Assembly (NCBI GenBank): GCA_030065635.1
Contig: JASJDJ010000007.1
Location: forward strand, 1 to 64,000
Length of the DNA stretch: 64,000 bases
DNA from: Xenococcaceae cyanobacterium MO_188.B32
GTDB lineage: Bacteria > Cyanobacteriota > Cyanobacteriia > Cyanobacteriales > Xenococcaceae
Direction: 5' to 3'
Each line of letters begins with the position of its first letter. The stretch's first letter is position 1. The position numbers and the translations under genes are program-made. Of the stretch, positions 10,160 through 37,914 are shown piece by piece. A model generated the notes under the pieces. The model saw nothing but the letters and a program-made list of their open reading frames with translations. It was not told the origin of the DNA and did no database searches.

Positions 10160-10627
10160 TCATAAAAACCGACTGAGATCGAATTCTTCGTTGGTATCTT
10201 CTTCTTGAAATCTTTCTGCACTGAGAATTAATAGCAGTCTCTCTGTATAGTCTACTGCTCCTCGTAATTCGTCTTTTAGTTTAGCTAAACCGCCGTTGGC
10301 GTACTCTTCAAATATTTGTACTCTTGCTTCTTCTATTTTGGGGTCTTCAGTGGAGAGTACTTTAATATCTTGGGTTTGTGTGACTGCAATTAACTTAATT
10401 ACCCAGTCGTAACCGCGAGAGATAAACACTTCTAAGCTAATGGGTGCAGGTTCGCTATTTGATATTTCTTTGAGAGGAACTCGTTTCTGATATTTTGCCC
10501 CTAAGCTAGCTGCAAAAACTATGACATCAGCATAAGTCTGAAACGCTCCAGTTGTTCCTTTTGTATCTAATAATTTTTGAACCAATTCTGCTTTGTCTTT
10601 GGCTACTTTGATTCTGGGTAATGCCAT
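10160..10627 (-). CDS. Dnd system-associated protein 4-like (orphan)
   Basis: A 155-residue protein resembling the DNA phosphorothioation-associated protein 4 family. It shows an N-terminal RIKVAKDKAELVQKLL, FQTYADVIVFAASLGAKY, a conserved basic RVPL, and a C-terminal QIFEEYANGGLAKLKDEL, all characteristic of that family. Family members are found beside dnd or other defence operons, and their biochemical role is not established. Here no dndB, C, D or E gene is adjacent. A palindrome (10664-10687) lies 37 bases upstream of the start, in the promoter position, and a sister copy lies at 10737-10764. I infer an orphan or relic with its own regulator. Confidence 0.7.
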   Translation of the reverse strand: MALPRIKVAKDKAELVQKLLDTKGTTGAFQTYADVIVFAASLGAKYQKRVPLKEISNSEPAPISLEVFISRGYDWVIKLIAVTQTQDIKVLSTEDPKIEEARVQIFEEYANGGLAKLKDELRGAVDYTERLLLILSAERFQEEDTNEEFDLSRFL

Positions 10628-10663
10628 GTTTGTCTAACTAGGGAATATTGTGAGCTATTTTTT

Positions 10664-10687
10664 GTATCAAAATTCAAACTTTGATAC
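10664..10687. promoter_or_regulatory. Palindrome copy a (GTATCA-N12-TGATAC)
   Basis: Variant member of the five-copy palindrome family, with a 12-base AT-rich centre. It lies 37-60 bases upstream of the start of the Dnd-associated gene, where an operator would overlap the promoter. Confidence 0.6.
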
Positions 10688-10736
10688 TTTCTAGCTTAAG
10701 GGATAATCATGCGATCGCCAGATTCTTTGCATAATA

Positions 10737-10764
10737 TTGTGTCAGAATTCAAAATTTGACACAA
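10737..10764. promoter_or_regulatory. Palindrome copy b (TTGTGTCA-N12-TGACACAA)
   Basis: Perfect eight-base arms separated by exactly 12 bases (GAATTCAAAATT). It sits between the divergent Dnd-associated gene and the broken sensor kinase. Confidence 0.6.
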
Positions 10765-10893
10765 ATATACTCAAAATTTAGATACATAGTACACAGATAA
10801 ATTCCCATCTTAAATAATCGGCGGACTTTGCTCCAACTTAGTCAGAATTGCCTAGAATTTTAAAAAAGTTAAATGTTCTTGTCTCCATAATTT

Positions 10894-12445
10894 ATGAGAC
10901 GCTTCTTCTGCTTAAAAAATTTTCCTCGATGTCATCAAGTCTTCGCTGAAGTTCGGACTCAAATTCTGCTCTGTTATCTCGGTTTGATGGCAGTTTTAAT
11001 GGGAATATCAATTCCCACAATCTATCAAGTAGTGTTTCAACAAATCGATCGACGTTTGCAGACAGAAGTAGTTTCTGAGATTGAGGAGCTTGAAAATGAG
11101 TTGGCAATAAAAAATCCTCAAAATTTGTTTCAACTTAAACAACTGATAGTTGAATATTTAGATGATGAATTAGTTGAGGAAGACCAGTTTTTAATCATCT
11201 TACTCGATCGACAGATTTTTCAGTCAAGTCCTCCAGTTGAAGAATTGCCCAAATCATTTCAACCAAATTCTGCCTTCATCAATAAGTTGACATCAACCGA
11301 ACAACCCAATCCAAAAAAGTTTATCGTTAACGATCCAGAAATTGGCAAAATTATCTACGGTCTTCTTCCGCTTCAACTAAATAATAAAAATCAAGGATTT
11401 TTTCTGGTAGCTAACGCCACCTTAGGCCTTTTCCCGGAAAGAATATACCACCTTTCATAGATGGATCTAGTTACGCAGCATTAGTTTTACCTTTTAAAAG
11501 GTGGTATATTCTTTCTTGGAAATCACCTTAGAAGAACACCAAGAGGCAGCTTCCGCTATGCGATTTGTCATCGGGGTTATTAGCATGCTTTTTTTGCTGA
11601 CCTCCGCAGGAGCTTGGTTTCTTTCGGGTTTGGTACTAAAACCTTTAAGAGTAATGTCAGCAACAGCAAGACAAATTAGCGTAAAAGACTTATCGCAAAG
11701 ACTTCCGGTAGGGGGTAAAGGGGAGATGGCTGAAATTGCTGATACTTTTAATGAGATGATGGACCGTTTGCAAAGAGCTTTCTTGAGTCAACGCAATTTT
11801 ATCAATGATGCTAGCCACGAACTGCGTACTCCTATTACTATCGTTCAAGGTCATTTAGAGTTAATGGGTGATAATCGAGAAGAACAGCAAGAAACTCTAG
11901 CGATCATTCATGAAGAACTCGAGCGCATGAATCGATTAGTTGGCGATCTACTCACTCTAGCTAAAGCAGAGCAGCCAGATTTTATTCGACCAGAATTATG
12001 TGATGTCGAGGTTTTCACTAACGAATTATACAACAAAGCCAAGGTATTGACTGCGGTTAACTTGCAATTGGAAGCAGTAGGAAAGGGAAATTTATATATC
12101 GATCGACAACGGCTAACTCAAGCAATAATGAACTTAGTAGATAATGCGGTTCAGCATACACCGCCTGAGGGAACTATTTTTTTAGGTTCTGCTTGTAATG
12201 AGCTAGATGTCCGCTTCTGGGTTAAAGATACGGGTATAGGAATCGATGTATCCGACCGACAGCGAATTTTTAATCGCTTTGCTCGCGCTTCTAACAGTCG
12301 TCGTCGTTCCGATGGTTATGGTTTGGGATTGTCTATTACTAAGGCGATAGTTACTGCTTGTGGTGGCTCGATTGAACTAGAGAGTTATTTGGGGAAAGGG
12401 TCTACTTTTACACTGATTTTTCCTGTGAATTCTTTGAATATTTAA
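10894..12445 (+). pseudogene. Sensor histidine kinase interrupted by a small insertion
   Basis: Two consecutive frames are halves of one membrane sensor kinase. The first (10894-11460) has a transmembrane helix at residues 28-50 and a periplasmic region. The second (from about 11524) has a second helix, HAMP, the phosphoacceptor box SHELRTPI, N-box NLVDNAVQHT, G1 DTGIGID, an F-box and G2 GYGLGLSI. A 98-bp element (11426-11523) plus one copy of an eight-base target duplication adds 106 bases and shifts the frame. Removing 106 bases restores an uninterrupted frame of 482 codons. No response regulator is adjacent. The second half could be translated from an internal start, but it would lack the sensor domain. 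Confidence 0.9.
11426..11523. mobile_element. 98-bp MITE with 8-bp target duplication
   Basis: Inside the kinase gene, an imperfect terminal inverted repeat of about 27 bases (inner core GAAAGAATATACCACCTTT and its complement, 19 bases, perfect) encloses some 40 bases of unique sequence. The element is flanked by the direct repeat CACCTTAG at 11418-11425 and 11524-11531. It carries no coding sequence, so it must have been moved by a transposase encoded elsewhere. Confidence 0.85.
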
Positions 12446-12473
12446 TCATAAATGATATGACGTTAACTATTTT

Positions 12474-12501
12474 TTGTGTCAAAATTAAAACCCTGACACA
12501 A
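12474..12501. promoter_or_regulatory. Palindrome copy c (TTGTGTCA-N12-TGACACAA)
   Basis: Perfect eight-base arms with a 12-base spacer. It ends 20 bases before the start codon of the small HTH protein, an expected position for autoregulation. Confidence 0.65.
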
Positions 12502-12521
12502 AAAGAGAAAAAGCGATCGCA

Positions 12522-12782
12522 ATGTTCATTGAAGGTGAAAAGTATACCTATCGTCAACTTATGGAGGAGACTGGTTTATCTAGAAGTACACTACACAGAA
12601 GAATTAAAGCGTTGAAAGAGTCGGAAGTACCTTTAACCATAGGTGCAATTATTCAGTTTCCTACTATTTGGTCATTTCACGACAAGGATGGCACTTACTA
12701 TTCATCTAAGACTGATTATGCGGTTAAAAATAGTATTCCTTACTATCAAATGTTTCAAGATTTGAATTCCGATACAAAATAA
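12522..12782 (+). CDS. Small helix-turn-helix protein
   Basis: An 86-residue protein with an N-terminal helix-turn-helix, YTYRQLMEETGLSRSTLHRRIKAL, resembling the DNA-binding modules of resolvases and of small regulators. The rest has no recognised domain. The start ATG is 20 bases after palindrome copy c, so it is a natural candidate for the factor that binds the palindrome family; that is inference. The frame after its stop codon continues into a pentapeptide-like remnant with no start of its own. Confidence 0.55.
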   Translation: MFIEGEKYTYRQLMEETGLSRSTLHRRIKALKESEVPLTIGAIIQFPTIWSFHDKDGTYYSSKTDYAVKNSIPYYQMFQDLNSDTK

Positions 12783-12961
12783 ACTGATGTTGATGCAACC
12801 CAGATTACGTTTATCGACGGTCTGGCAATTGGAGCGACTGTAACCAATGCTGACTTTAGTGACTCTACTTTGATTAAGTCGAACTTCACTGATGCTATTG
12901 ACATAGATAAAGCTATCTTTACCGGTGCTGATACTACAGACGCGATTGGAATTCCAGTATA
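12783..12961 (+). pseudogene. Pentapeptide-repeat protein remnant
   Basis: Immediately after the HTH stop codon and in the same frame, about 58 codons read as degenerate pentapeptide repeats (NADFSDSTLIKSNFTDA, KAIFTGADTT) ending in a stop. There is no usable start codon, so this is the tail of a lost pentapeptide gene or of a read-through product. Pentapeptide proteins form right-handed quadrilateral beta-helices. No function can be assigned to this scrap. Confidence 0.6.
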
Positions 12962-13223
12962 ATTCTGAGGATTTTTCTTTCTCGTCACCAATAGCGCGAT
13001 CGCCTTTCATTGAGTTTAGAGCGATCGCTCTCTTTTCCATCTGTCTGTTTACTGGCTGCCGTATTAGGGCATATTTGAATCTATTCAATTACTGAAATTC
13101 AATGTTTGGGTCTACTAGCTCTCTTCTTCTTGCCCCTGCTGTGTATTCGTGACCAGGAACCACTCTGCTATCAACGAAATGGATTTCCCAATTCAATTTC
13201 CCTGAGCGATCGGCTTGCTCTTA

Positions 13224-13249
13224 TGTGTCAAAATTAAATTTATGATACA
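13224..13249. promoter_or_regulatory. Palindrome copy d (TGTGTCA-N12-TGATACA)
   Basis: Seven-base arms with one mismatch and a 12-base centre, AAATTAAATTTA. No gene start lies close by, so this copy may be a remnant promoter site or an auxiliary binding site. Confidence 0.55.
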
Positions 13250-13456
13250 CAATAATTCTTTTAAACTCGATCGAGCGATCGATGTTTTACCGTCTTTCCC
13301 TGATGTGCGTCACCTTCTATACCTAACCCTGCTATCAGTCGAATACTGTCTTGGTTGGATTTGCTAAAGGTGTGGGTTGTGCTAGTACTAACTGCTGTTA
13401 CTATTCCTATTCCTTCCATCGATCGCTTTATTCTTGCCTCAAATTTATTCTACAAG

Positions 13457-13482
13457 TGTGTCAAAGTTAAACTTATGACACA
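13457..13482. promoter_or_regulatory. Palindrome copy e (TGTGTCA-N12-TGACACA)
   Basis: Perfect seven-base arms with a 12-base centre. It ends 60 bases before the start of the NTF2-like gene, in a promoter position. Confidence 0.6.
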
Positions 13483-14014: not shown

Positions 14015-14284
14015 ATGACCAACACAAGAACCTATATACAAAGCCTTTTAGGTATTAACGATAAGATGGAAGCCAAGTTAAAAGAAACACATAAGATGAG
14101 TATTATTTCAGATTGCAATACTAATAAATTGAGCCTAAGCAATAGTAATGACCACGTCAAAATGCGACTATTTCTACGAAAAGAAACTAGGGACAGACTG
14201 CATATTCACAAAATAAACACTGGTGAGAATATAAGCGATATTGTGGATGCTGCGGTTACTGCTTATCTCGATAAGATTTCTTAG
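14015..14284 (+). CDS. Ribbon-helix-helix type DNA-binding protein
   Basis: An 89-residue protein with a polar, unstructured N-terminal half and a C-terminal segment (VKMRLFLRKETRDRL...GENISDIVDAAVTAYL) that fits the strand-helix-helix pattern of MetJ/Arc and ParG-type regulators. Such proteins repress their own operon or act as antitoxins or plasmid partition factors. No toxin or parA gene is adjacent. It converges on the next gene with only seven bases between stops. The assignment is by pattern and moderate. Confidence 0.5.
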   Translation: MTNTRTYIQSLLGINDKMEAKLKETHKMSIISDCNTNKLSLSNSNDHVKMRLFLRKETRDRLHIHKINTGENISDIVDAAVTAYLDKIS

Positions 14285-31752: not shown

Positions 31753-34700
31753 ATGGATCATTTATTGGAATGGAAAGCTAGTTGTGTAGACGAAGAATTA
31801 ACCAGTCTGAATGTCATTCCCTTGAGTGGTTCTTGTCCTTCAGAATATTTGCTCTATTCTGATGGTATCCCTAGACGTAATGATGGGAGAATAAACGAAG
31901 GATTTCTCCAAAGATATGCTCATACTACTGAAGGGGGATGGTGGTGTTCGGGTATCGATCTTTTGACGGGAGAAGAAGACTTATGGGGTTGCTTTAAACC
32001 AGATAATCCTCGCTTGAGCCAAAATAAAGGAAAAATAATTAAATACGAGCATCCACCTAAAGCACCAACTGGCTTATTTGCGCTTAAAGTTCCCCTGCAC
32101 TTATGGGAGCAGATTGCTAATCGCTACGGTGTAGATATTTTACCAGCAGACATAGATAAGAAACAACCCGATCGAGGTTTTTGGCAGTGGTTAATTAAAC
32201 ATCCTCTTATTCCTTTGTGTATTACAGAAGGAGCAAAAAAAGCAGGAACATTATTATCGGCGGGTTATGCTGCGGTCGCGCTTCCTGGAATTAATAGTGG
32301 TTATCGCACTCCTAAAGATGAGTGGGGCAACCGTATTGGTAAATCCCATCTTATTCCTCAGCTACAAAAATTAGCTAGTGGGGGACGAGAAATATATATT
32401 GTTTTCGATCGAGACTCTAAACCCAGTACGGTTAAAGCTGTTAACGCAGCGATTAGAAAAATAGGCTATCTTCTACAACAGGCTGGTTGTTCGGTTAAAG
32501 TAATTACTTGGGATTCTGCTTTAGGAAAGGGCGTAGATGATTTTATTGCTACGGCAGGTCAAGACAGTTTCGATCGCGCCTATGATACCGCTTCTTCTCT
32601 AGAAGTTTGGAAGGCTAAGGCGGGAACTCGTCTGACTCATACACCCCAAATTCAAGTTAATTCTCGTTATTTACCAGATTTAGAAATTACTGCTGAGGCT
32701 AAGTTAATCGGGATTAAATCCCCTAAAGGCACGGGAAAAACCAGGTTACTAGAGAGTATAGTATTAAGAGCAAAACAAAGTCAACAGAAAATATTAGTTA
32801 TCGGTCATCGGGTACAACTAGTACAAGCTCTTTGTCAGCGTTTTGGCATTAAATATATTACGGAAATTGGGAATAATGCTCGTAATAATAGCAAAATTAT
32901 CCAAAATAATGCTAAAGATTCATTCCCGCGTCCCTGCGTCCCCCCATCTCCCCATCACTCAACCGCAACCAACTCAAATAAAAATACTATCAATGGCTAT
33001 GGTCTTTGTATAGATTCTCTTCATCCCAACTCTCAAGCCCAATTTAACCCCGCAGATTGGGAGGGTGCGATCGTTATTATCGATGAAGTAGAACAAGTTC
33101 TATGGCATGGGTTAAATTCGAGTACTTGTAAAGATAATCGAGTAGCTATTCTCAAGTCTTTAAAAACTTTGATGCAAAATGTTTTGAGGACTCAAGGACA
33201 AGTATATTTAGCTGATGCGGACTTGAGTGATATCGCGATCGACTATTTAATTTCTCTGTCTGGTATTAATCTACAACCCTATATTATCCAAAATGACTGG
33301 AAACCAGAACGAGAATTATCTTGGCAGGTATATAACTATTCGGATAGTACCCCCAAAAGATTAGTTAAAGACTTAGAAAAACATATAACTGAAGGGGGAA
33401 AACCTTTTGTTTGTCTATCGGCACAAAAACTAACCAGTCAGTGGGGGACGAGAAATTTAGAGGCTTATTTTCAACAAAAATTTCCTCAAGCTAAAATTCT
33501 GCGCATTGATTCAGAATCTCTTGCCGATCCCCATCATCCAGCCTATGGTTGCATTAACAAGCTAGATCGGACTCTAGCTGACTACGATCTGGTTTTAGCC
33601 AGTCCCTCGATCGAAACAGGAATTAGCATCGAACTAGAAGATCGTTTTACTTCGGTTTGGGTAATTGCCCAAGGAATTCAAGGTGAAAATAGCGTCAGGC
33701 AGACATTAGGTAGAGTTCGTGCCAATGTACCCAGACATATTTGGTGTGCGGGTTACGGTTTTAATAAAATAGGTAATGGTTCGACTTCTATTCCTAGCTT
33801 ACTTACCTCTGGACATCGTTTGACCCAACTAAATATCCGTCTACTGCAACAGTCAGACTTTGCCAGTATTGACGATATCGATACTGGTTTTCAAGCCGAG
33901 TCTCTACTTTGTTGGGCAAAAATGGCAGTAAGGTTTAATGCAGGCATGATTAACTATCGCGAGTCGATTTTATCCGCATTAAGAGAAGAAGGACATCAGG
34001 TAATTGATGCCCTAGCGTCAACTAAAGCTAAACCAGAAAAGCCATCAAATAGTAAAAAAGAACCCTCTTCCTTAATCGAAGCCATTACCGAAGTCAGAGA
34101 ACAAAATTATCTAACTGAATGTGAAGCGATATCCAATGCTTCTCCTCTTAGTAATAAAGAATATCAAATTCTCAAAAAACGTTTGGTTAAAACCAATACC
34201 CAACGGCATAGACTCAGAAAATACGAACTGCAACAACGTTATTATCTGCCAGTAACACCCCAAATTGTCGCCTTAGACGACGACGGTTGGTATCAAAAAA
34301 TTAGATTGCACTATTTTCTTACTGTTGGTCGTGCTTATCTTGTCGATCGCGATGCTAAAGTGGCACGTAAACTAATAGAACGGGGAAATGGTAGTTTATT
34401 TTTACCCGATTTTAATGATTCTCAATTGGGGGCAATAGTCGGGACAATGGAAGTTATCGGTATTCCTATTTTACTAGCCAATCCTAATAGGGAATTACGT
34501 AATAGCGATCTTGACTTACAAGAAATTGCTGCGCTCGCTCTCAATCATCGTAGCGAAATTAAAACCACTATGGGTATCGGTATTGCTAAAAATTATAGTC
34601 CTGTCACTATAATCAGACGTTTTTTAGAAAAAATTGACTACGGACTCAAATATATTCGTTGTGAAAGCGAAAATAAAGGCAAAAAAAGAATTAGAGTCTA

Positions 34701-34869
34701 TCAAATTGCCAAACCAGAAGATAATAGAGAAGAAGTTTTTAAACATTGGTTAAAAAGAGATGGCGATCGACCTGGTAGTTCTTTATTCTGGAAAGATGGT
34801 AACTTTAAGTTAAATAGATCTCCCAATCCTGAAGATACAAATTATTTACAATTAAGCTTAAATCTTTGA
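31753..34869 (+). CDS. CyRepA1-type plasmid replication protein (DUF3854)
   Basis: A 1038-residue replication initiator of the cyanobacterial plasmid type. The N-terminal DUF3854/TOPRIM-like primase region includes ITEGAKKAG (about residue 157), ALPGINSGYR and YIVFDRDSKP (about 215). A helicase-like ATPase region has Walker A SPKGTGKTRLLE (about 322-334), Walker B VIIDEVEQVLW (about 440) and later SPSIETGISI and QTLGRVRAN. An unusual low-complexity insert (FPRPCVPPSPHH, about residues 391-402) is encoded by DNA that looks like an intergenic repeat. The upstream repeated motif may be its operator. The window looks chromosomal, so this may mark an integrated plasmid. Confidence 0.85.
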   Translation: MDHLLEWKASCVDEELTSLNVIPLSGSCPSEYLLYSDGIPRRNDGRINEGFLQRYAHTTEGGWWCSGIDLLTGEEDLWGCFKPDNPRLSQNKGKIIKYEHPPKAPTGLFALKVPLHLWEQIANRYGVDILPADIDKKQPDRGFWQWLIKHPLIPLCITEGAKKAGTLLSAGYAAVALPGINSGYRTPKDEWGNRIGKSHLIPQLQKLASGGREIYIVFDRDSKPSTVKAVNAAIRKIGYLLQQAGCSVKVITWDSALGKGVDDFIATAGQDSFDRAYDTASSLEVWKAKAGTRLTHTPQIQVNSRYLPDLEITAEAKLIGIKSPKGTGKTRLLESIVLRAKQSQQKILVIGHRVQLVQALCQRFGIKYITEIGNNARNNSKIIQNNAKDSFPRPCVPPSPHHSTATNSNKNTINGYGLCIDSLHPNSQAQFNPADWEGAIVIIDEVEQVLWHGLNSSTCKDNRVAILKSLKTLMQNVLRTQGQVYLADADLSDIAIDYLISLSGINLQPYIIQNDWKPERELSWQVYNYSDSTPKRLVKDLEKHITEGGKPFVCLSAQKLTSQWGTRNLEAYFQQKFPQAKILRIDSESLADPHHPAYGCINKLDRTLADYDLVLASPSIETGISIELEDRFTSVWVIAQGIQGENSVRQTLGRVRANVPRHIWCAGYGFNKIGNGSTSIPSLLTSGHRLTQLNIRLLQQSDFASIDDIDTGFQAESLLCWAKMAVRFNAGMINYRESILSALREEGHQVIDALASTKAKPEKPSNSKKEPSSLIEAITEVREQNYLTECEAISNASPLSNKEYQILKKRLVKTNTQRHRLRKYELQQRYYLPVTPQIVALDDDGWYQKIRLHYFLTVGRAYLVDRDAKVARKLIERGNGSLFLPDFNDSQLGAIVGTMEVIGIPILLANPNRELRNSDLDLQEIAALALNHRSEIKTTMGIGIAKNYSPVTIIRRFLEKIDYGLKYIRCESENKGKKRIRVYQIAKPEDNREEVFKHWLKRDGDRPGSSLFWKDGNFKLNRSPNPEDTNYLQLSLNL

Positions 34870-35109
34870 TTATTTTTCGATCTTTGTATGCCTTAAACCT
34901 CTTACCTCTTACCTCTAATCTAATGACTCCAGAATCTAACCACGTTCAACAACCTATTACCAGTGCCCCATTTTTAAATTTAGGTAAGTAGTACGCAAAA
35001 TGAATTACTCATAGGGTAGGGGTGTAGAAGAAGAAAACTAATAGCTGATAGCTGATAGCTACTTATCTAAAGTGTACAATTAATTTCGTTTAGGTACTTA
35101 ATAATTTCA

Positions 35110-37217
35110 ATGAGATTAATTTCTCTACAGTTATGTAATTTTCGTCAATTTTACGGACAAACTCCCGTAATTAAGCTGGCTAGTGGGGAAGAAAATACTA
35201 CAGTTATTCATGGAAATAATGGGGCAGGTAAAACCACTTTACTCAATGCTTTTACTTGGGTTCTATATACTAAATTTACTGCTGCTTTAGCTTTTCCCGA
35301 ATTATTAATTAACAAACGATCGATTAGAGAAGTAAAACCCGGTACTGCCGTAGAATGCTGGGTGGAATTACAATTCGAGCATGAAAATAAACACTATCAA
35401 TTAAAACGTAAATGTTACGGGACTAGAAATGACAATAATGAAGTAGAATATAGTCCTCATAAGTTATTTATGTTAGTTACGGCCGATGATGGTCGTTGGT
35501 ATCCTCCTCTAGAATCTCCAGAAGATATTCTCGAACGCATTTTACCTGAAAGTTTGCATCAGTATTTCTTTTTTGATGGAGAAAGAATAGATAGTTTTTT
35601 TCGTGCCGGGCAGAATAAAAATCTTGCCGAAGATACCAAAGAATTGCTAGGAGTTAAAATTTTAGACAGATCGATCGAGCATTTAAAAAAAGCGAAAAAA
35701 ACTCTACAAGAAGAATTACAAGCTATTGGCGATCCAGAAATTCAAAAAATTCTCAAAGAACAAATACAATTAGAACGAGAAAGCGATCGACTTACACTGC
35801 GTCAACAAGAAATAACCAAAAAACTTCGCGAACTAGAACAACAAAAACAAACTTTAACTAATAAATTGCTCGATTTAAGTGGTGCAAATGAACTGCAAAA
35901 ACTCAAGGAAAAATTAATTCAGCAAGAGAAAGCAATTAAACACAATCTAGTCAATCAAAAAAATGTCATAAAACAATTAATTTCTCGTCAGAGTTATACT
36001 ATTTTTTTACCCACAATAACAAGTGAATTTTTAAAATTACTCGAAAAATTAAGATACAATAAGCAGCTAACTACTGGAATCAAACAAGAATTTATCCAAC
36101 AATTACTTTACACCCAGCAATGTATTTGTGGTCGTGAACTTTGTCAGGGTTCAGAAGCTCATAGCAATATTCGGGCTTGGCTCAAACAAGCAGAAAGAGC
36201 AGAGATAGAAGAAGCAGCTATTCGCTTAGAAATTCAAGTTAAAAAATCAGAACAGAAATTAATTGATTTTTGGCAAAGAGTAGACCGAGAACAAACTAAT
36301 ATAGATCGGCAATATAGAGAGAAAATAAAGCTAGAAAGTGAATTAGGGCAAATTGATAAAAAGCTGAGAAATTATCCAGATGATAAAATACAAACAATAC
36401 AAATATCAATCGAACGAATAGAATCGGAAATTAAAAACTTAATTAGAGAACAAGGAGCTAATCAACAGCAACTAGAGATACAAAACAAACAAATTATTCG
36501 CCTACGTCAAATCAACAGCAACTAGAGATACAAAACAAACAAATTATTCGCCTACGTCAACTACTAAACATAGGTCGAATTAAAAAAGGTAAGCAAGCCC
36601 TAGCTAAAAATAGAATTCAAGCAGCCCAAGAAGCGATTGAACGATTAATCGAAGTAAGATTGCGCTTAGAAGATCGATTTCGCCTTTCTTTAGAACAAAA
36701 AGTACAAGATATTTTTAAATCTATTTCCTTTACACCTTATATACCAAAATTGAATAATAATTACGAACTAACTTTAGTAGAAAATACTTCAGGAATATCT
36801 ACAATCGTGGCTGCGTCTACAGGAGAAAACCAAATTATTAGTCTATCTTTTATCGGTGGAATTATCGATCGAGTAAGAGAATGGAGTAAACGTAATACAC
36901 TGATTGGAATTGATAGCAGTACATTTCCTATCGTGATGGACTCTCCTTTTGGTAGTTTAGATGCAATCTATCGGCGACAGATAGCTAAATTAGTACCCCA
37001 ACTAGCCAATCAATTAGTGTTACTTGTCACCAAAACTCAATGGCGAGGAGAAGTAGAACGAGAAATACAAACGTATATTGGTAAACAATATGTGTTAACT
37101 TATTACTCTCCCAAACACGATTGTGAAAAAGATTGGTTAGAATTAGATGGAATTAACTATCCATTAGTGCAAAATAGTGTCAATGAATTTGAATACACTG
37201 AGATTATTGAAATTTAG
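35110..37217 (+). pseudogene. DndD-like SMC ATPase broken by a 50-bp tandem duplication
   Basis: An SMC/Rad50-like ATPase of the DndD kind. The first part has Walker A GNNGAGKTTLLNAF, the typical YFFFDGERID and a long coiled coil with a zinc-hook-like CICGRELC. The second part has the signature-like STGENQIISLSFIGGI and Walker B FPIVMDSPFGSLD. A perfect 50-bp tandem duplication (36461-36560) shifts the frame and stops the first part at 36525. Removing one copy restores a continuous frame of 686 codons. DndD acts in DNA phosphorothioation systems; related ATPases occur in other defence systems. No dndB, C or E gene is adjacent. Confidence 0.85.
36461..36560 (+). repeat. Perfect 50-bp tandem duplication
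   Basis: Bases 36461-36510 are repeated without a mismatch at 36511-36560. The unit starts ATCAACAGCAACTAGAG and ends CGCCTACGTCAA. The length (50, not a multiple of three) causes the frameshift in the DndD-like gene. Perfect identity implies a recent event or an assembly artefact. Confidence 0.97.
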
Positions 37218-37305
37218 TGGTTATCAATTGAATTGGGACAAAAGAATACTTAAATTTTGTATAGATTATTGATTCTATAATTATTGGGGAGTTGTAAAAG
37301 CAGAG

Positions 37306-37914
37306 ATGTTGATTCTAGATTCAGAGCAAGTTCAATATTGTCAAGTTGTTGCCACTATAGAAGGACAATCAAAAATAGAATCAGGATTGATATATCAAAA
37401 TAATGTATTTGTCAAAGTAAAAACTTACTCTAGAGAAGATTTACAGACAGCAATTAGAGAGTGCCGTGAAGATTATTTAGACAATGACAAGATAGAAGTT
37501 CCCACCTTAATTATTAAAGCAGAAAAGGAAGTTACTTTGTGGATCGAAGACAATAGATTTAAACCAAAACAAGGTCAATTTCCTAACTCTACTACCAAGC
37601 CAAAGAAAAAATCCAACAAAGTTAATCTATACGATTTAATAGCTAAAATGCGGGGAAAAGACGGCTTAGATATCAAAACTCGTCGTTATCAGTTAAAGCT
37701 ATATAAACGCTGTTTTGTCGGTAGCGAAGCCGTAGATTGGCTTACGAAACATCTAAATATTTCTCGCCCAAAAGCAGTAGCAGTCGGACAAAAATTAGTC
37801 GATCAAAAAGTAATTCATCACGTTAATGATGAACATTCATTTAAAGACGAGCCTTTATTTTATCGCTTCTATGAAGATGAAGGAAAAAGTCTTTGGACAG
37901 ATAAACTTATATAA
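37306..37914 (+). CDS. DEP-domain protein
   Basis: A 202-residue protein. The C-terminal third (about residues 110-195) is a DEP domain: LIAKMRGKDGLDIKTRRYQLKL, the CFVGSEAVDWL core, and HHVNDEHSFKDEPLFYRFYED. DEP domains, best known from eukaryotic Dishevelled/Pleckstrin proteins, mediate membrane or protein contacts. The N-terminal 85 residues form a small alpha/beta module with no known match. It follows the DndD-like gene by 88 bases. Its role is unknown; a link to the ATPase or the replication gene is only positional. Confidence 0.8.
   Translation: MLILDSEQVQYCQVVATIEGQSKIESGLIYQNNVFVKVKTYSREDLQTAIRECREDYLDNDKIEVPTLIIKAEKEVTLWIEDNRFKPKQGQFPNSTTKPKKKSNKVNLYDLIAKMRGKDGLDIKTRRYQLKLYKRCFVGSEAVDWLTKHLNISRPKAVAVGQKLVDQKVIHHVNDEHSFKDEPLFYRFYEDEGKSLWTDKLI

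Follow-up and report, generated by a model that had tools for sequence, protein, structure and literature searches.

A small winged-HTH protein and the cluster of 26-bp near-palindromes that it probably binds in the Xenococcaceae/Hyellaceae family of cyanobacteria

Six near-palindromic DNA sites surround the gene for F3, an 86-aa winged-HTH protein, in a stretch of 64,000 nucleotides from Xenococcaceae cyanobacterium MO_188.B32 (positions 1 to 64,000 of contig JASJDJ010000007.1; hereafter "the window"), and the protein and the sites accompany each other among the relatives of this organism. The reading that we favor, and consider reasonably probable, is that the sites are F3 binding sites, that F3 is a local autorepressor acting through O1 (the site nearest its start codon), and that the other sites are auxiliary or roadblock sites resembling O3 of lacI. 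This reading draws on comparative sequence analysis, which makes F3 very probably both the binder of the sites and the repressor of its own gene. The features concerned are listed here with their window coordinates.

10160..10627, minus strand: dnd_assoc_4 gene (TIGR04062, E 1.1e-60), the usual neighbor of F3 and a possible target
10663..10688, plus strand: weak site (21.7 bits), 35 bp upstream of the dnd_assoc_4 start
10738..10763, plus strand: exact site in the divergent gap between the dnd_assoc_4 and histidine kinase genes, 110 bp upstream of dnd_assoc_4
12475..12500, plus strand: O1, exact site, 21 bp upstream of the F3 start codon
12522..12782, plus strand: F3, 86-aa winged-HTH protein, putative binder and autorepressor (from HTH_24/HTH_11 and its family distribution)
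12751..12776, no strand given: O2, weak site (20.2 bits), within the last ~30 nt of F3
13224..13249, plus strand: one-mismatch site immediately 3' of the MOSC remnant, orthologue of L064:11526
13276..13464, minus strand: MOSC-domain pseudogene remnant (first ~60 codons, in-frame stop, rest deleted)
13457..13482, plus strand: exact site upstream of the MOSC remnant, 60 bp before a DUF4440 gene, orthologue of L064:12143

The site cluster in the window and the genome

The six 26-bp near-palindromes share the consensus TGTNTCA-N4-T-NN-A-N4-TGANACA and are spread over window positions 10663-13482. The sequence-only reading had described five strict TGTGTCA-N12-TGACACA palindromes; these repeats are real and far above background, but there are six of them and only three (at 10738, 12475, and 13457) matched exactly in a pattern search of the window, with one mismatch at 13224 and three each at 10663 and 12751. 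The copy overlooked earlier is the one at 12751-12776, within the 3'-terminal stretch of the HTH gene. At up to three mismatches, the window contained eight matches versus 1.5 expected, a count reached in 0 of 100 shuffles. Scored with a position weight matrix (PWM) trained on the relatives' copies, the six sites reached 20-34 bits and the runner-up place in the window 6.3 bits, which bears out the earlier statement that the rest of the window has no such repeat; in random sequence amounting to 6.4 Mb, one place exceeded 15 bits and none exceeded 20, with a maximum of 18. The whole 6.4-Mb genome was searched with consensus patterns allowing up to three mismatches rather than with the PWM, and this recovered five of the six window sites and one weak place on contig 262 (control pattern, 0 matches), so that the cluster is confined to the window region apart from that one place. 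The latter (L090:1852-1877 in G000, the source genome) is a perfectly symmetric look-alike, TATGTCAATTTTGAAAATTTGACATA, of 12 bits that may be a chance match, and it is located ~100 bp upstream of a DUF3854-type gene homologous to the window gene at 31753. In the window, this DUF3854/helicase-like gene is followed by a DndD-like AAA/SMC gene, apparently split between two frames (35110-36525 and 36660-37217), and then by a DEP-domain gene (31753-37914 together). A literature search on the motif found nothing relevant.

The arms of the sites are symmetric and the center is not, so each site has a polarity. Among 102 sites, positions 13/14 were complementary in only 9 (versus 40 expected) and positions 8/19 in 21 (versus 37 expected), and this complementarity below chance indicates a protein site and not an RNA stem. 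A hairpin, an intrinsic terminator, and an RNA element were rejected for the same reason, and an Rfam search of the sites gave no match.

Conservation of F3 together with its sites

Across the 27 genomes of the Xenococcaceae/Hyellaceae family, a profile search detected F3 in 20, and the oriented site pattern, at zero mismatches, was found in the same 20 (0-1 matches with the reversed control). The seven genomes without F3 were also without a site cluster, two of them holding a single weak look-alike. Beyond the family, 390 class and 391 order genomes gave no convincing match to F3 (only two marginal partial matches, E>0.002), plasmids, phages, and viral contigs contained no relatives of it, and two Streptomyces matches were discarded since their likeness to F3 was limited to the HTH stretch. 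The exact motif, searched among 149 order genomes, was likewise restricted to the same GTDB family, apart from one match without the AT-rich center. The relatives include Xenococcus, Pleurocapsa, Hyella, Myxosarcina, and Waterburya, a group with baeocyte formers among its members. Most of the genomes with sites have a single cluster (several are draft assemblies, which may cut short a cluster close to a contig end), and the sites are located at a median distance of 385 bp from F3, with 90% of them within 2 kb. One Xenococcus genome (G068) has extra sites on a second contig, away from F3 (L136:6962-9758 and L085:10200, 14495, and 17777; contig 183), three of which are between convergent genes.

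Because the presence and absence of F3 and the sites track phylogeny, their co-occurrence goes back to few independent events of gain or loss. More weight falls on the observation that O1 and the clustered sites stay with F3 when its neighborhood changes. The commonest neighbor of F3 is dnd_assoc_4, usually divergent from it and, in the source genus, separated from it by a histidine kinase gene; a profile search found no dnd_assoc_4 in G068 and G120, yet both retain F3 and the sites. As for dnd_assoc_4 itself, it was present in 123 of 149 sampled order genomes, almost always as a single copy, a distribution that suggests a near-core gene of cyanobacteria and not an accessory to Dnd systems. 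The kinase gene, intact in G155, is divided in the window into 10894-11460 and 11501-12445 by a ~110-bp MITE-like insertion (11418-11528) with terminal inverted repeats AAAGAATATACCACCTTT...; this element has ~16 copies in the genome, eight of them identical, so it moved recently. Eight genomes also encode a DUF6262 protein (F5; HTH plus coiled coil) at one edge of the cluster (L081:7516-8076, with relatives in L070, L071, L072, L075, L078, L079, and L080), in most cases with the 5' side of the gene pointing to the cluster from 500-1100 bp away. It was considered as a Tn554-type recombinase partner and dropped because its neighbors were ordinary genes (amylosucrase-like, alkaline phosphatase, and others).

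Within the cluster, O1 is the most constant site, located 14-33 bp upstream of the F3 start in 19 of 20 genomes and with identical polarity in 19 of 19. Being this close to the start codon, it overlaps either the promoter or the 5' leader, and it looks like an operator at the F3 promoter. O2, 270-288 bp from O1, is present in 16 of 20 genomes and missing in four; where present, it falls on the 3' end of F3, with its codon position conserved. Its left arm encodes the conserved F3 residues MFQ, and its right arm is retained where the tail of the protein varies; in the case of G155, F3 ends at a stop codon inside O2 and the DNA site continues past it, so that O2 is not merely a product of protein conservation.

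The shared distribution of F3 and the sites, the position of O1 at the promoter of F3, and the retention of sites through neighborhood change together point to F3 as the binder. The sequence-only reading had proposed either the small HTH protein or an RHH protein for this role; on comparative grounds the former is strongly supported and the latter is not supported, the RHH gene (14015-14284) having been seen only here and in G155.

F3 matched Pfam HTH_24 (best) and HTH_11 above cut-offs, 42 of its 86 columns were invariant in the family alignment, and its conservation exceeded that of dnd_assoc_4 in 57 of 66 genome pairs. It had no recognizable sensor or catalytic domain, nor could a coiled coil or an effector domain be made out clearly. 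The predicted structure is a winged HTH (mean pLDDT 75) with a short and uncertain C-terminal part. Its structural matches were weak, the best being the ParA2 N-terminal domain (Z <=5.1), followed at Z 2.5-4 by AsnC-type, MerR-type (TnrA, GlnR, RacA, and NmlR), and pSK1 Par proteins; these show a generic HTH fold and not a function. The weak likeness to the MerR superfamily (TnrA/GlnR and RacA, Z 2.5-3) is accompanied by TGT...ACA outer contacts of the site, as in the TnrA site; unlike those of MerR regulators, however, the F3 site is 26 bp long with a TnnA center, and F3 has neither the coiled coil nor the effector domain in clear form.

Gene starts, gene ends, and the MOSC remnant

Three of the repeats had earlier been described as lying just upstream of gene starts, and the repeat had been taken for a regulon operator. 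Two of the three cases stand, namely dnd_assoc_4, with its two upstream sites, and the HTH gene. The site before the NTF2-like gene is instead inherited from a MOSC gene, now dead, on the opposite strand, upstream of which it once stood, as its orthology to L064:12143 indicates. In G155, L064:11526 and L064:12143 flank an intact MOSC gene; the window remnant is 83% identical to residues 1-61 of that protein and has lost 382 bp internally, and the two near-perfect sites at 13224 and 13457 still flank it. Among the genomes compared, the site at the 3' end of MOSC was strong in 5 of 5, and the upstream site was weak in 2.

Of all the sites, O1 and those preceding dnd_assoc_4 are the only operator-like ones; the remaining sites have no promoter bias. 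Sites other than those of F3 itself were found in 19 convergent, 17 divergent, and 17 co-directional gaps, versus 14.4, 21, and 17 expected for sites scattered at random over the same intergenic sequence. Relative to gene calls from a simple codon-usage caller, and with O1 excepted, there was no enrichment within 80 bp of start codons (14 sites versus 15 expected); at a distance of up to 12 bp, start codons had one site (2.4 expected) and stop codons 12 of 62 (4.8 expected). Owing to the orthology among many of these sites, the counts for stop codons and for orientation are made up of non-independent observations, and by our estimate the stop-codon excess may come down to about five separate cases (dnd_assoc_4, MOSC, NUDIX, GNAT, and a few others). 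Many sites, in short, sit at gene ends and not at promoters, which ordinary operators leave unexplained.

These positions bear directly on the alternative of an ordinary local regulon, in which each site would be the operator of its nearest gene (e.g., dnd_assoc_4 or MOSC) with F3 as repressor or activator. O1 and the dnd_assoc_4 upstream sites are at promoters in most genomes, as such a regulon predicts, but we regard it as a possible though unlikely explanation, given that sites in convergent gaps are as frequent as space predicts, that gene starts are not enriched, that it is the 3' site of MOSC that is uniformly strong, that the sites outlast the dead MOSC gene, and that the neighboring genes vary among genomes.

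Proposed mechanism and alternatives

In the reading that we prefer, F3, encoded amid its own sites, would bind them and repress its own promoter from O1. O2 and the sites at neighboring gene ends would hold F3 near O1 by bridging; alternatively, they would be roadblocks to RNA polymerase, as for LacI at O3, or decoys. The promoter of dnd_assoc_4, which usually faces O1, would probably be repressed together with that of F3. Repression from O1 is suggested by position, and we infer the binding and the bridging or roadblock steps from the arrangement of the sites. LacI limits its own synthesis through a roadblock at its extra operator O3 (PMC3711431), and the putative F3 system resembles it in having a site tied to its own gene, conserved here as O1, with further operators nearby. 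Unlike LacI, F3 is an unrelated 86-aa HTH protein whose main site is at its own promoter, and its sites have no helical phasing, either for O1-O2 or for any spacing below 700 bp (82 spacings tested at periods of 10-11 bp, Rayleigh p 0.24-0.92), so that tight looping is not favored. Mycobacteriophage L5-type stoperators offer another comparison, as these are repressor sites located away from promoters in short intergenic spaces, in addition to promoter sites, and are phage-wide 13-bp asymmetric sequences whose polarity follows transcription (PMC9283540). Many F3 sites are likewise intergenic, non-promoter, and polar, but they are 26-bp near-palindromes in a local cluster, and their polarity is independent of transcription (8 same versus 11 opposite in co-directional gaps), unlike that of L5-type sites or of polar roadblocks in general. 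This polarity, the lack of phasing, and the loss of O2 in four genomes count against the preferred reading.

A different version, which we find quite unlikely, is that F3 would coat or bridge a self-contained site cluster, the two making up a nucleoprotein locus specific to this lineage of baeocyte-forming cyanobacteria, one that would serve the surrounding genes as a transcription insulator or an anchor and not as a set of promoter operators. More specifically, F3 might coat the cluster as a centromere or nucleoid anchor that organizes or partitions DNA, like RacA or ParB-parS. The one cluster in most genomes, near the gene of the presumed binder as in ParB-parS, the indifference of the sites to promoters, and a polarity shared with F3 in 46 of 57 non-own sites (in part due to shared descent) would fit such a role, as would the weak structural matches to a ParA2 N-terminal domain and to the HTH domains of pSK1 Par and RacA, and the half-site variant TGTTTCA/TGAAACA, which equals the parS half-site. 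The parS site, however, is 16 bp long (TGTTTCACGTGAAACA) with a spacer of 2 bp, compared to 12 bp here; F3 itself is no ParB and has no accompanying ParA or other partner, and no ParA or ParB was recognized when the neighboring ORFs were inspected. The structural Z-scores are generic for HTH proteins. Three large assemblies place dnaN 0.7-0.9 Mb away from the cluster, for which reason an origin-proximal parS was rejected. Overall, we consider a centromere or anchor distinctly improbable.

It is very improbable that the sites are those of some other DNA-binding protein in the family, with F3 merely its most consistent target, because a general factor would have sites elsewhere, and the sites occur only around F3 in most genomes, including the large assemblies G046, G159, and G120. 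A role of the sites in moving single-gene cassettes by recombination or transposition, or as the Tn7/Mu-like ends that the sequence-only reading had raised, is hardly credible: the inverted arms with an asymmetric core, the genes flanked by sites on both sides, and the varying gene content would suit it, but no recombinase accompanies the clusters, no transposase is common to the site loci, F3 has no catalytic domain, the likeness between site copies ends at the 26-30 bp site boundary, and the sites bound no element but flank single ordinary genes, one of which (MOSC) was lost through breakpoints inside the gene with both sites intact, which speaks against cassette recombination.

With F3 as the probable binder and autorepressor, a family-specific, highly conserved, and uncharacterized regulator is paired with its probable DNA code. 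The gene-end sites and the sites around the dead MOSC gene constitute a natural test of looping, roadblock, insulation, or titration, and the system provides a starting point for studying how dnd_assoc_4 is regulated.
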